Source: Zhongshania marina
Lineage (GTDB): Bacteria; Pseudomonadota; Gammaproteobacteria; Pseudomonadales; Spongiibacteraceae
Assembly: GCF_002915595.1 (NCBI RefSeq)
Contig: NZ_PQGG01000031.1
Coordinates: 186,001 to 250,000 of the forward strand
Direction: 5' to 3'
DNA length: 64,000 nt
Made by a program: the position numbers and the translations under genes. The notes below the pieces were generated by a model. The model made no database searches. It was not told the origin of the DNA and saw nothing but the letters and a program-made list of their open reading frames with translations. This document shows positions 43,585 through 47,682 of the stretch, one piece after another. How positions within the stretch are numbered: the first letter of the stretch is position 1; each line of letters opens with the position of its first letter.

Positions 43585-44709
43585 CTAGCGCTTTTTAAGT
43601 ATCAGACTGCCGATCGAGTAACCGGCCCCAAACGAACAAATCACGCCGATATCGCCGCTGGCTAAATCCTCATGGTATTTAGCAAAGGCAATAATTGAAC
43701 CCGCTGAAGCAGTATTGGCGTATTCGTCGAGCACAATTGGTGCTTCTTCCAGCGTCGCGTCGCGGCCTAATAATCGTTTACTGATTAAAAGATTCATATT
43801 GATGTTGGCCTGATGCAGCCACCAGCGTTTTAAATCAGCGACCTCAATCCCTTCGCTGCGCAAATGGCTTTCAATGTGCTCGGCTGCCATAGGGCAAACT
43901 TCTTTAAATACCTTGCGACCATTTTGGTGAAAGAGCTTATCTGCGGAATAAGGGTCTTCGTCGGTTGTCCGCGTGGTGTAGCCAAAATTCGAACGAATAT
44001 TATTGGAGTAGGAGGTCACGCATTTTGTGCTTAAAACATCAAATGCGTGGGCAGATTGGCAAGTGTCTCCGCTCTCGACGACGACCGCTGTGGCAACATC
44101 ACCAAAGATAAAGTGTGAATCTCTATCCGTGTAATTTACCTGCGGTGAGGTAAGCTCAGGGTTAATGACTAATACACCTTTGGAGGTGCCGCACTTAACT
44201 GCATCAACTGCCCGCTCTAAGCCAAAGGTGGCGGCGGAGCAGGCAACAAGCATATCAAAACCAAATCCGTTGATGCCTAAGGCCATTTGCACTTCAATCG
44301 CAATGGCGGGGTAAGCGCGCTGAGTATAGGCGCAGGACACAATCACCATATCAATATCAGCGGCGGTTTTATTGGCAGCACTCAGAGCTTTTTTGGCGGC
44401 GGCAATGGCCATTTCTGCCTGATGTGAAACCTGCTCGTCATCGCGGATGTCAAGCAGGGGGCGCATGCGATGAATATCTAAAACACCCTCCTTTGAATAG
44501 GCGTAGCGATTTTTAATGCCAGATGCCTTTTCAATAAACTCAGGGCTCGATAGTGGCTTTGCCTCCAGCTCTCCGGCCTCAATAGCCGCGTGGTTTTGCT
44601 GGTTAAAATGTTCAGCCCAAGCATTGTAGCTTGTGACGAGTTCTTCGTTGCTAATGCTATTTTCTGGAGTCCATAGGCCCACCCCGCTAATAACGACTGA
44701 GGAGTTCAT
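43585..44709 (-). CDS. 3-oxoacyl-ACP synthase III-like protein (FabH2 type)
   Basis: 374 residues. Thiolase-fold condensing enzyme: catalytic Cys in MLVACSAATFGLERA, His in WWLHQANINMN, Asn in DEYANTASAG, and an N-terminal insertion (HFNQQNHAAIEAGELEAKPLSSPEFIEKASGI) that lengthens it relative to classic FabH. This matches the Pseudomonas FabH2-like subgroup that primes or elongates from medium acyl chains. It diverges from fadE across a 531-bp gap holding the palindromic element, so acyl-CoA-derived priming beside beta-oxidation is plausible. Confidence 0.86.
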   Translation of the reverse strand: MNSSVVISGVGLWTPENSISNEELVTSYNAWAEHFNQQNHAAIEAGELEAKPLSSPEFIEKASGIKNRYAYSKEGVLDIHRMRPLLDIRDDEQVSHQAEMAIAAAKKALSAANKTAADIDMVIVSCAYTQRAYPAIAIEVQMALGINGFGFDMLVACSAATFGLERAVDAVKCGTSKGVLVINPELTSPQVNYTDRDSHFIFGDVATAVVVESGDTCQSAHAFDVLSTKCVTSYSNNIRSNFGYTTRTTDEDPYSADKLFHQNGRKVFKEVCPMAAEHIESHLRSEGIEVADLKRWWLHQANINMNLLISKRLLGRDATLEEAPIVLDEYANTASAGSIIAFAKYHEDLASGDIGVICSFGAGYSIGSLILKKR

Positions 44710-44845: not shown

Positions 44846-45120
44846 CTTAAGGAGCCTCAGCACAACCGGGTAATATCTCAGCGGAGTCTTTGTGGCGTAC
44901 TGGCAAGGCGACGCGCGAGGATCAAGGCTGGTTGTCCTTGATGAGTGCGGCAACGCCGTCCAGTGCGCCACAAAGGCCTGCCCTCTGGGGCTTTGCCTTA
45001 AAGCGCTCAGCTGCGTTGACGTTACTTGAAAGGCAACCAGCCTTCCTGCATAACGCCGCCTTGCTGAGCGCTTTAAGTCAAAGCCTGAGGTATCAACCGG
45101 TTGTGCAGAGGCTCCTTAAG
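44846..45120. mobile_element. 275-bp MITE-like palindromic element with two internal hairpins
   Basis: Ends are 24-bp inverted repeats (44846-44869 and 45097-45120, one mismatch) beginning CTTAAGGAGCCTC. Inside are two long hairpins (44889-44974 and 44997-45077), the second with a 15-bp perfect stem. The two tip loops are complementary over seven bases (CTGGTTG at 44928 and CAACCAG at 45034). The whole element is roughly symmetrical. Both ends carry TTAA, so a 4-bp target duplication is possible but cannot be told from the inverted repeat. No transposase inside. It has no protein-coding look. Confidence 0.78.
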
Positions 45121-45240: not shown

Positions 45241-47682
45241 ATGATTGGCCTACTAGCATTTCTTGCAATAATTATTGTCACCGCGTTTATCTTTTATTTT
45301 CATTTGTCTCGTCGTAGCGGCTGTGCGGTGTTTGTTGCTGCGTGGTTACTAGCCGGAACCTGTAGCGAATTTTTTGTTCACCCCCTCGCGCTGCTAGTGG
45401 TGCTGGCGGTATTGGCGGTGATTCTTGTCGATAGTCTGCGTATTAAGTTTGTTAGCGCACCGGCAAGAAATGCGCTGAAAAAGATGATGCCAGCGATGAG
45501 CAGCACCGAGCGCGAAGCCTTAGACGCGGGCACAACTTGGTGGGAAAAGGATGTGTTTTCGGGGCAGCCGGACTGGGCTAAGTTTGAGCGAATTCAGTTG
45601 TCTAGCCTCAGTGATGCCGAGCAAGCTTTTCTCGACAATGAAACCGCCGAGCTGTGCGGAATGCTCGACGAATGGCAAATTCATCACCACGACAAAGATC
45701 TCTCGCCCCCTGTTTGGCAGTTTATCAAGGAAAAGGGCTTTCTAGGCCTAATCATTCCCCGCGAATACGGCGGCCTTGAATTTACTCCCTACGCACAAAG
45801 CCGTGTGGTCAGTAAAATTGCGAGTCGTTCAACGGTTGCGGCGGTGAGCGTCATGGTGCCCAACTCCTTGGGCCCCGGCGAATTGCTGATGAAATACGGC
45901 ACCGCAGAGCAAAAGGATTTTTGGCTTGCGCGCTTGGCTAAGGGCGAAGAAATACCGTGTTTTGGTTTGACCAGTCCGGAGGCGGGCTCAGATGCTGGCG
46001 CTATCCCAGATACCGGCGTTGTCTGCGAACAAGAATATAAAGGCGAGAAAGTCTTGGGCGTAAAGCTCAATTTTTCAAAACGTTGGATTACCCTTGCGCC
46101 GATTGCCACGGTGGTTGGTTTGGCATTTAGATTGAGCGATCCAGATGGCTTAATTGGCGATGAAGTTGAGCGCGGCATTAGCTGTGCACTTGTGCCAGCG
46201 GATTTGGCGGGGGTGGAAATTGGTCGCCGTCACTATCCTGGCTCGGCATTTATGAATGGCCCGATTACCGGGGTAGATGTATTCATTCCCATGTCGATGT
46301 TGATTGGCGGGCAGGAATATATAGGCCAAGGCTGGATGATGCTGGTGGAGTGCTTGGGCGCGGGCCGTGGTATTTCACTACCTGCTCTGTCTACCGCCGG
46401 CGGCGAGATGAGTTATTTGATGGTGGGTGCTTTCGCGCGGATTCGCCGTCAGTTTGGTATTCCCGTTGGTAAGTTTGAAGGGGTGCAGGAGGCCAGTGCT
46501 GATATAGCAGCCGGCGCCTATATGCTTGAAGCCTATCGCGCTTTAGTAACTCGTGCACTCGCCGATGGGGCGCCGTCGGTGTTAACCGCGATGGCGAAAT
46601 ACCACGCGACGGAAACCATGCGCGGTCTGATAAATCACAGCATGGATATTCTAGGCGGGCGGGCTATTCAAATGGGGCCGCGAAACTTTATGGCGCTGGT
46701 ATACCAGACTATTCCCATCGCGATTACGGTAGAGGGTGCCAATATTCTCACCCGCTCTATGATTATTTTTGGGCAGGGTGCCATGCGCTGCCACCCGTAT
46801 TTGGCCGACGAGCTAGAGGCACTTAGCGACGAAACCGACGGTGCCATTGCGCGCTTTGATAAATTGCTGAGCGCGCATTTAGCCCATACGGCTGGGGTGT
46901 TTAGTCGCGGATTCATCGCGGGATTAAGCGCCGGTAAATTATCCAAACCAGACTGCGGAAACAGTGCGCTTGCCGAGCGCTGGTATCCTCGTATTGATAG
47001 ATACAGTGCGGTATTTGCAGCAACAGCAGACTTTGCCTTGCTATTACTGGGCGGTGATCTAAAGCGCCGTGAATTGCTGTCGGCGCGCTTGGGCGATGTT
47101 CATAGCCAGCTCGTGATCGCCTGCGCCATCCTCAAATATCACGACTCGCAAACCGCGAGCGAGGCCAACACCGCCCACGCCGAATTTGCATTAAAACGCA
47201 GCTTTGCGGCGATAAATAAGGCCTTGCTGGGTTTTTACCAAAATATGCCCCAGCGCTGGATGGGCTGTGTATTAAAAGTGGTTTTCTTTCCCTGGGGCGT
47301 ACCGAACTTCGATGTGTCGGACAATGAAATTCGAAGCTTGGGCGACATGATCATGACCCCCAATCCAGTGCGGGCGCAATTAGCGGCGGCGGTGCACATC
47401 AGCGACGATGATCAAGACGCGCAGGGGCGTATTCACCGCGCCTTCGATTTATTGACAGAGATCGAAAGCGAATACGATGTGTTTCTAGAAAATGATCAGC
47501 GCGGTCGTTTGGACGGTGAAGACTTTGCAGAAAAACTAAACTCCGCGGTCAGCAAAGGCTTGGTGAGCGAAGCCTTTGCTGCGCGTATTGCGGAATACGA
47601 TGAGCGCCGTTATGACTGCTTACTCACAGATGCCTTTGACGCCAATTTACACGACGTCGATGTACGTCCAGTCCGGCCATAG
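45241..47682 (+). CDS. fadE: Acyl-CoA dehydrogenase FadE
   Basis: First step of beta-oxidation in gammaproteobacteria, 813 residues (E. coli FadE 814). The N-terminus has two membrane helices (FLAIIIVTAFIFYFHLS and SEFFVHPLALLVVLAVLAVILVD), then the dehydrogenase domain with IIPREYGGLEFTPYAQS, GLTSPEAGSDAGAIPD and VEGANILTRSMIIFGQGA, then a C-terminal helical domain typical of FadE. ATG 45241 is chosen because GAGAGGG precedes it. The palindromic element lies 120 bases upstream, so this gene's promoter must lie in or after it. Confidence 0.95.
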   Translation: MIGLLAFLAIIIVTAFIFYFHLSRRSGCAVFVAAWLLAGTCSEFFVHPLALLVVLAVLAVILVDSLRIKFVSAPARNALKKMMPAMSSTEREALDAGTTWWEKDVFSGQPDWAKFERIQLSSLSDAEQAFLDNETAELCGMLDEWQIHHHDKDLSPPVWQFIKEKGFLGLIIPREYGGLEFTPYAQSRVVSKIASRSTVAAVSVMVPNSLGPGELLMKYGTAEQKDFWLARLAKGEEIPCFGLTSPEAGSDAGAIPDTGVVCEQEYKGEKVLGVKLNFSKRWITLAPIATVVGLAFRLSDPDGLIGDEVERGISCALVPADLAGVEIGRRHYPGSAFMNGPITGVDVFIPMSMLIGGQEYIGQGWMMLVECLGAGRGISLPALSTAGGEMSYLMVGAFARIRRQFGIPVGKFEGVQEASADIAAGAYMLEAYRALVTRALADGAPSVLTAMAKYHATETMRGLINHSMDILGGRAIQMGPRNFMALVYQTIPIAITVEGANILTRSMIIFGQGAMRCHPYLADELEALSDETDGAIARFDKLLSAHLAHTAGVFSRGFIAGLSAGKLSKPDCGNSALAERWYPRIDRYSAVFAATADFALLLLGGDLKRRELLSARLGDVHSQLVIACAILKYHDSQTASEANTAHAEFALKRSFAAINKALLGFYQNMPQRWMGCVLKVVFFPWGVPNFDVSDNEIRSLGDMIMTPNPVRAQLAAAVHISDDDQDAQGRIHRAFDLLTEIESEYDVFLENDQRGRLDGEDFAEKLNSAVSKGLVSEAFAARIAEYDERRYDCLLTDAFDANLHDVDVRPVRP

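Follow-up and report, generated by a model that had tools for sequence, protein, structure and literature searches.

The window, a 64,000-nucleotide stretch of the Zhongshania marina genome, contains at positions 44851-45115 a genuine gene-less IS5-type MITE of 265 bp with A-type terminal repeats. It lies between a fabH2-type gene (start at 44709) and fadE (ATG at 45241), at distances of 137 and 121 bp, respectively, in agreement with the 136 and 120 bp given by an earlier sequence-only reading of this locus. Among the listed ORFs of 80 residues or more, two (81 and 94 aa) overlap the element, and both extend into a flank. The left terminal inverted repeat (GGAGCCTCAGCACAACCGG, 44851..44869, + strand) is comparable to the ends of IS5-family elements (GGAACCTCTGCACAACC), and the right one (45097..45115, - strand) is delimited by the repeat search and by the aligned copies. 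Each end is bordered by a TTAA, the left (44847..44850) and right (45116..45119) target-site duplications being identical, as expected from the IS5-kind mobile element with a 4-bp duplication that had been proposed from the TTAA at both ends. The repeat search extends the inverted ends, also recognized previously, to 36 nt (44846-44881 and 45085-45120, 89% complementary).

The interior is made up of two hairpins, delimited by RNAalifold analysis of 16 copies, each comprising a basal stem and a module that we refer to as X. Hairpin 1 (44882..44980, + strand) is joined to hairpin 2 (44990..45084, - strand) by a short linker (44981..44989, as defined by the copy alignment and RNAalifold). The repeat search reports arms at 44888-44903 and 44960-44975 for the former, and at 44989-45011 and 45063-45085 for the latter. 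Both internal hairpins of the sequence-only reading are therefore present, the second being longer (97 nt in total) than the 81 bases it was credited with. The complementarity of the tips CTGGTTG and CAACCAG is found as claimed at the sequence level, inside a 16-nt match of 88%, and arises because hairpin 2 approximates the reverse complement of hairpin 1. The element folds far more stably than its shuffled versions, both as DNA (z = -11.7) and as RNA (z = -13.5), none of 200 shuffles equalling it in either case.

Copies, insertion sites and the probable IS5-family source

Counting that of the window, the host genome holds four copies at 95-100% identity, and also a fifth copy at 74% over the core and a decayed 3' end. 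Within the family, matches were found in 11 of 21 genomes, its own counted, so that further copies exist in the genome as well as in relatives. Of the full copies, 26 were aligned, and the 16 devoid of a long insert were used for length, site and fold statistics: 14 measure 265 bp, one 264 and one 266. The flanking 4-mers of these 16 copies are identical in 11 cases (TTAA, CTAG or CTAA) and differ by one base in the other five. In the relatives G006 and G016, the sequences flanking the element are continuous, with just a single TTAC between them; the empty sites have the same boundary, though TTAC replaces the TTAA of the window. This shows that the element inserted at a TTAA/TTAC site, duplicating 4 bp. 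Target duplication with an empty site and multiple copies thus accompany the other MITE attributes of this element, namely its short length, its terminal inverted repeats and its lack of a transposase gene.

Several copies depart from this layout. A 51-bp derivative (L074, G000:C11:161736-161789), flanked by TTAA on both sides, retains little beyond the terminal repeats, and its join looks as though the DNA between short GGTTGT matches in a hairpin tip and in the right end had been lost. Copies L056, L059-L064 (G015) and L052 (G009) have ~47 additional nt inserted in hairpin 1, including a CTGCATGGATGCAG-like palindrome; Rfam returned no match within this insert at the four loci searched. In L004, L033, L034 and L037, changes in one terminal repeat are matched by those in the other repeat of the same copy, a pattern resembling conversion of one end by the other.

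Two end types, A (GGAGCCTCTGCACAACC) and B (GGCACCTCTGATTAATTC), are associated with one common core, and both have counterparts in IS5-family elements of the genus. Genome G015 possesses six transposase copies with an A-like end ~200 bp from the match. Two complete A-like IS copies were inspected at both ends: L136 has TTAG on either side, and L135 has no duplication. In genome G014, an IS flanked by CTAG on either side has B-like ends. The two examined transposases (G015 and G014) are 45% identical, and both match the NCBIfam IS5 family NF033581 (IS5_4) with 346.8 and 336.4 bits, far above the cut-off of 140. The host genome shows only fragments of both IS kinds, located on small contigs. 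Of note, in one of its transposase regions (L139, G000:C36:1-980) an A-like-end and a B-like-end IS5-family element abut, and this junction may be nested or chimeric, or may stem from misassembly of repeats, the contig being small. Elements of the IS5 group duplicate a 4-bp YTAR target. Since the ends match those of IS5-family elements and the 4-bp duplications are of the YTAR type, we infer that a transposase of the NF033581 (IS5_4) kind mobilizes the gene-less element in trans.

The X module and the elements that carry it

For the 16 copies, RNAalifold predicts 96 base pairs, and in 34 of these both sides show changes; within the terminal repeats, two-sided changes would be expected on other grounds and do not prove a structure. 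In more distant relatives, both the ends and the basal stems differ, yet the apical part is the same. When hairpin 2 is reverse-complemented, it aligns with hairpin 1 as a single module, X (21 pieces), consisting of a basal stem, an invariant internal loop, a 7-bp inner stem and a tip. The internal loop is made up of invariant A.GGC and AACG positions (one of them nearly invariant), and the inner stem covaries, its sequence changing with pairing kept. The window hairpins are hence two X in inverted orientation, the first with its sense on the + strand (44899..44963, 64.5 bits with R1, the covariance model of X) and the second on the - strand (45006..45068, 70.9 bits), these scores not being independent as both hairpins belonged to the R1 training set. 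In the host genome, R1 (E ≤ 0.1, 150 of 1468 candidates scored) identifies 10 hairpins, which are those of the five copies, several being from the training set.

X is distributed far beyond the genus. Across the class, R1 matches occur in at least 76 of 369 genomes and at least 61 of 272 genera (E ≤ 1e-5), these counts being lower bounds with 14 candidates scored per genome. An exact X pattern that leaves the inner stem free returns at least 119 stretches in genome contigs, from Gamma-, Beta- and Alphaproteobacteria, Campylobacterota, delta lineages, Clostridia, Paenibacillaceae and others. R1 applied to 58 of these at least 119 pattern loci reports 65 matches (E ≤ 0.01) and none in at least L303, L330 and L341; L330 (Flavobacteriales) does not resemble X and is probably a chance match. 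The pattern is also present in five viral contigs, in which the reversed pattern has no occurrence; the window element itself gave no blastn match with plasmids and phages.

X is often enclosed by inverted repeats. With a first set of margins (11 loci being too near an edge), such repeats were found around 36 of 39 double and 18 of 50 single X, and at none of 139 random places. With wider margins, an enclosing inverted repeat of at least 14 nt was found at 144 of the 190 testable X contexts and not at the other 46, as compared with 0 of 122 random places (220 X matches in total, 22 too near an edge and 8 repeats dropped). The element lengths over these 144 contexts cluster at 160-179 bp (41) and 260-279 bp (76, 27 having other lengths), double elements entering these counts twice, once per X. 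Among 42 doubles, the X starts are spaced by 101-107 nt in 39 and by 119-123 nt in three, and 44 of 48 neighbouring X pairs are in +,- order. Single-X elements, which display X on one strand only, exist as well. Locus L383 has three X in a row (+,-,-), and L395 is a 333-bp element with the order -,+. The enclosing ends are highly diverse in sequence. The core of the window's element is two inverted copies of X, a module shown to recur in elements with unrelated ends in several phyla. X was also searched for in 23 transposase-bearing loci, without any match; X is therefore not needed for IS5 transposition as such, and the idea that it forms part of the parent IS elements was rejected.

MITEs are usually viewed as insertion sequences devoid of their middle. 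In X elements, it is the middle that is conserved and the ends that vary. X may be a pan-bacterial structured RNA or single-stranded DNA (ssDNA) motif carried in MITEs, the ends of which would be swapped to suit the available IS5-like transposase, a proposal to which we give slightly less than an even chance. If true, one would be dealing with a lineage of structured hitchhikers rather than with decayed insertion sequences.

Strand preference of the hairpins

If a hairpin is selected in its folded single-stranded form, the strand that folds should tolerate G.T more than A.C, the two being one mismatch read from opposite strands. In the alignment of the basal stems all mismatches cost the same, and the inner stem was read at a fixed distance from the loop. 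In 180 distinct hairpins (from 220 matches, 40 being skipped) taken in X orientation, G.T pairs outnumber A.C pairs in the basal stems (297 vs 55) and in the inner stems (72 vs 7); 142 hairpins have more G.T, 10 more A.C, and 28 are tied. Excluding the stem part near the model and counting by locus, 64 loci have more G.T, 8 more A.C and 23 are tied (95 loci; 18 of 145 hairpins were skipped, including poorly paired stems). In the R1-found hairpins, the model itself prefers G-U over A-C in the inner stem, and the ratio is weaker, 45:13, in the pattern-found set, whose inner stem is free of model bias (110 distinct matches from the at least 119 loci). The 660 inner-stem pairs of this set comprise 527 Watson-Crick, 45 G.T, 13 A.C and 75 other pairs, the means after shuffling being 196.7, 86.7, 64.2 and 312.4, respectively. 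The basal stems of well-paired pattern matches, drawn from 80 of the at least 119 loci, yield G.T:A.C ratios of 29:3, 85:11 and 88:28 at arm lengths of 12, 18 and 24. Many hairpins are related, and sign tests or formal p-values overstate the certainty of these counts.

In doubles (35 usable of 42 for each hairpin), each of the two hairpins is biased on its own strand, with G.T:A.C ratios of 20:2 and 19:3 in the inner stem and of 48:7 and 46:8 in the basal stem. The closing stem of 39 doubles, a control without orientation, is even (36 G.T, 38 A.C). The excess of G.T over A.C on each X strand suggests that selection targets each X separately, on the strand to which it belongs and in the form of a single-stranded hairpin. 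This bias, along with the evenness of the closing stem, would have no explanation if the element were an ordinary IS5 MITE, whose hairpins persist through template-switch self-correction of palindromes with X itself unselected. Strong stem-loops are attributed to bacterial MITEs in the available parts of two reports (PMC10969869, PMC2229807), and paired changes at both ends affect the terminal repeats too, both in line with self-correction, which nevertheless accounts neither for the clustered element sizes nor for the conservation of the internal loop in different phyla and between unrelated ends; we consider it improbable.

Separate selection of each X on its own strand would also disfavour the cruciform, the whole-element RNA and the kissing loops between tips that the sequence-only reading had put forward. 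The very stable fold of the whole element could point to one folded unit, a cruciform or kissing-loop RNA, regulating an adjacent gene such as fadE. However, hairpins 1 and 2 are biased to G.T on opposite strands, and when the whole + strand is pooled over the 16 copies, the bias cancels (85 vs 88), on which grounds a single whole-strand RNA was rejected. Likewise, six or seven of the seven Watson-Crick loop pairs are kept in nine of the 16 aligned copies and only two to five in the other seven, a loss that led to the rejection of loop kissing. As X is also without clear orientation bias relative to genes, regulation by the folded whole appears very improbable.

Affinities and possible role of X elements

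REPIN and BIME consist of hairpins that bear a GTAG tag and are mobilized by a REP-associated tyrosine transposase. Such transposases are described for REP doublets in the accessible part of PMC2817692, and there, as in the window element, two inverted hairpins form the mobile unit (PMC2817692, PMC3189936, both available in part). In contrast, the window element has DDE-kind inverted ends and target duplications, features that argue against its being a REPIN or BIME. It resembles MITEPsy1 of Pseudomonas syringae, an IS5-related, non-autonomous element with IS5-like inverted ends and a 4-bp CTAG/YTAA target duplication, the transposition of which has been observed; MITEPsy1 is, however, 100 bp long as against 265 bp here, and paired hairpins are absent from the accessible portion of its description (PMC3189936). 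The CIR elements of Caulobacter and related alphaproteobacteria share with the window element two hairpin arms joined by a linker and a structure conserved between species, but they are ~110 bp long with GANTC at a loop, this comparison being between descriptions alone (PMC2229807, in part). Finally, Correia/NEMIS, QMITE2 and other stem-loop MITEs are likewise small, with inverted ends and, in their case, structured transcripts (partial texts of PMC2229807 and PMC10969869). They form one stem-loop by end-to-end pairing (PMC2229807, same portion), and their descriptions there mention no module common to unrelated ends (PMC2229807, PMC10969869). IS5-end MITEs and two-armed repeats are thus already known, and the new part is the conserved core X, of which the portions of the open-licence literature at hand hold no recognizable description. 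At gathering score, Rfam reports no match at any element in the window region and 27 loci. Below the cut-offs, it reports mir-883 in the window (21.3 for 85), MIR398 in L343 (34.9 for 55) and, inside elements and possibly by chance, M23 (cut-off 41.2) at L221:1430-1477 (28.8 bits) and L212:1481-1528 (27.9 bits).

Regarding the role of X, its orientation was compared with the surroundings in 77 contexts where just one X was detected, some of these being doubles with the second X missed. X is sense to the neighbouring genes in 39 and antisense in 32, and its distribution relative to GC skew is 39:38, hence without clear bias toward genes or replication strand. For this reason, X more likely serves the element itself than the flanking genes. 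The account we hold to be rather probable is that of an IS5-type MITE moved in trans, whose X is a selected single-stranded hairpin, likely of RNA, aiding the element itself. The two inverted X would let either strand display one such hairpin. We would guess that the invariant internal loop of the RNA hairpin is recognized by a widely conserved partner, and that X serves the element's own spread, aiding its persistence or transposition and not a neighbouring gene.

The main alternative, which we regard as possible but clearly less likely, is that X has no RNA role and is an ssDNA hairpin, exposed when the lagging strand is synthesized, when DNA is taken up or on transposition, and recognized by a protein of the host or of the transposition machinery. 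ssDNA also tolerates G.T, so that the strand bias fits both forms equally well, and double elements display one X per strand (44 of 48 pairs in +,- order). Less easily accommodated are the balance relative to GC skew, which gives no preferred replication strand, and the single-X elements with X on one strand only. Should the selection on X be true, in either form, these elements would harbour a component active in single-stranded form in widely differing bacteria; this would suggest a conserved cellular partner and make it possible to test directly why they spread. X would also allow a uniform annotation of a large repeat class, for which no name was found. In genomes G675, G458 and G763, many X matches are located within ~130 bases of contig ends, suggesting that X elements probably break short-read assemblies.
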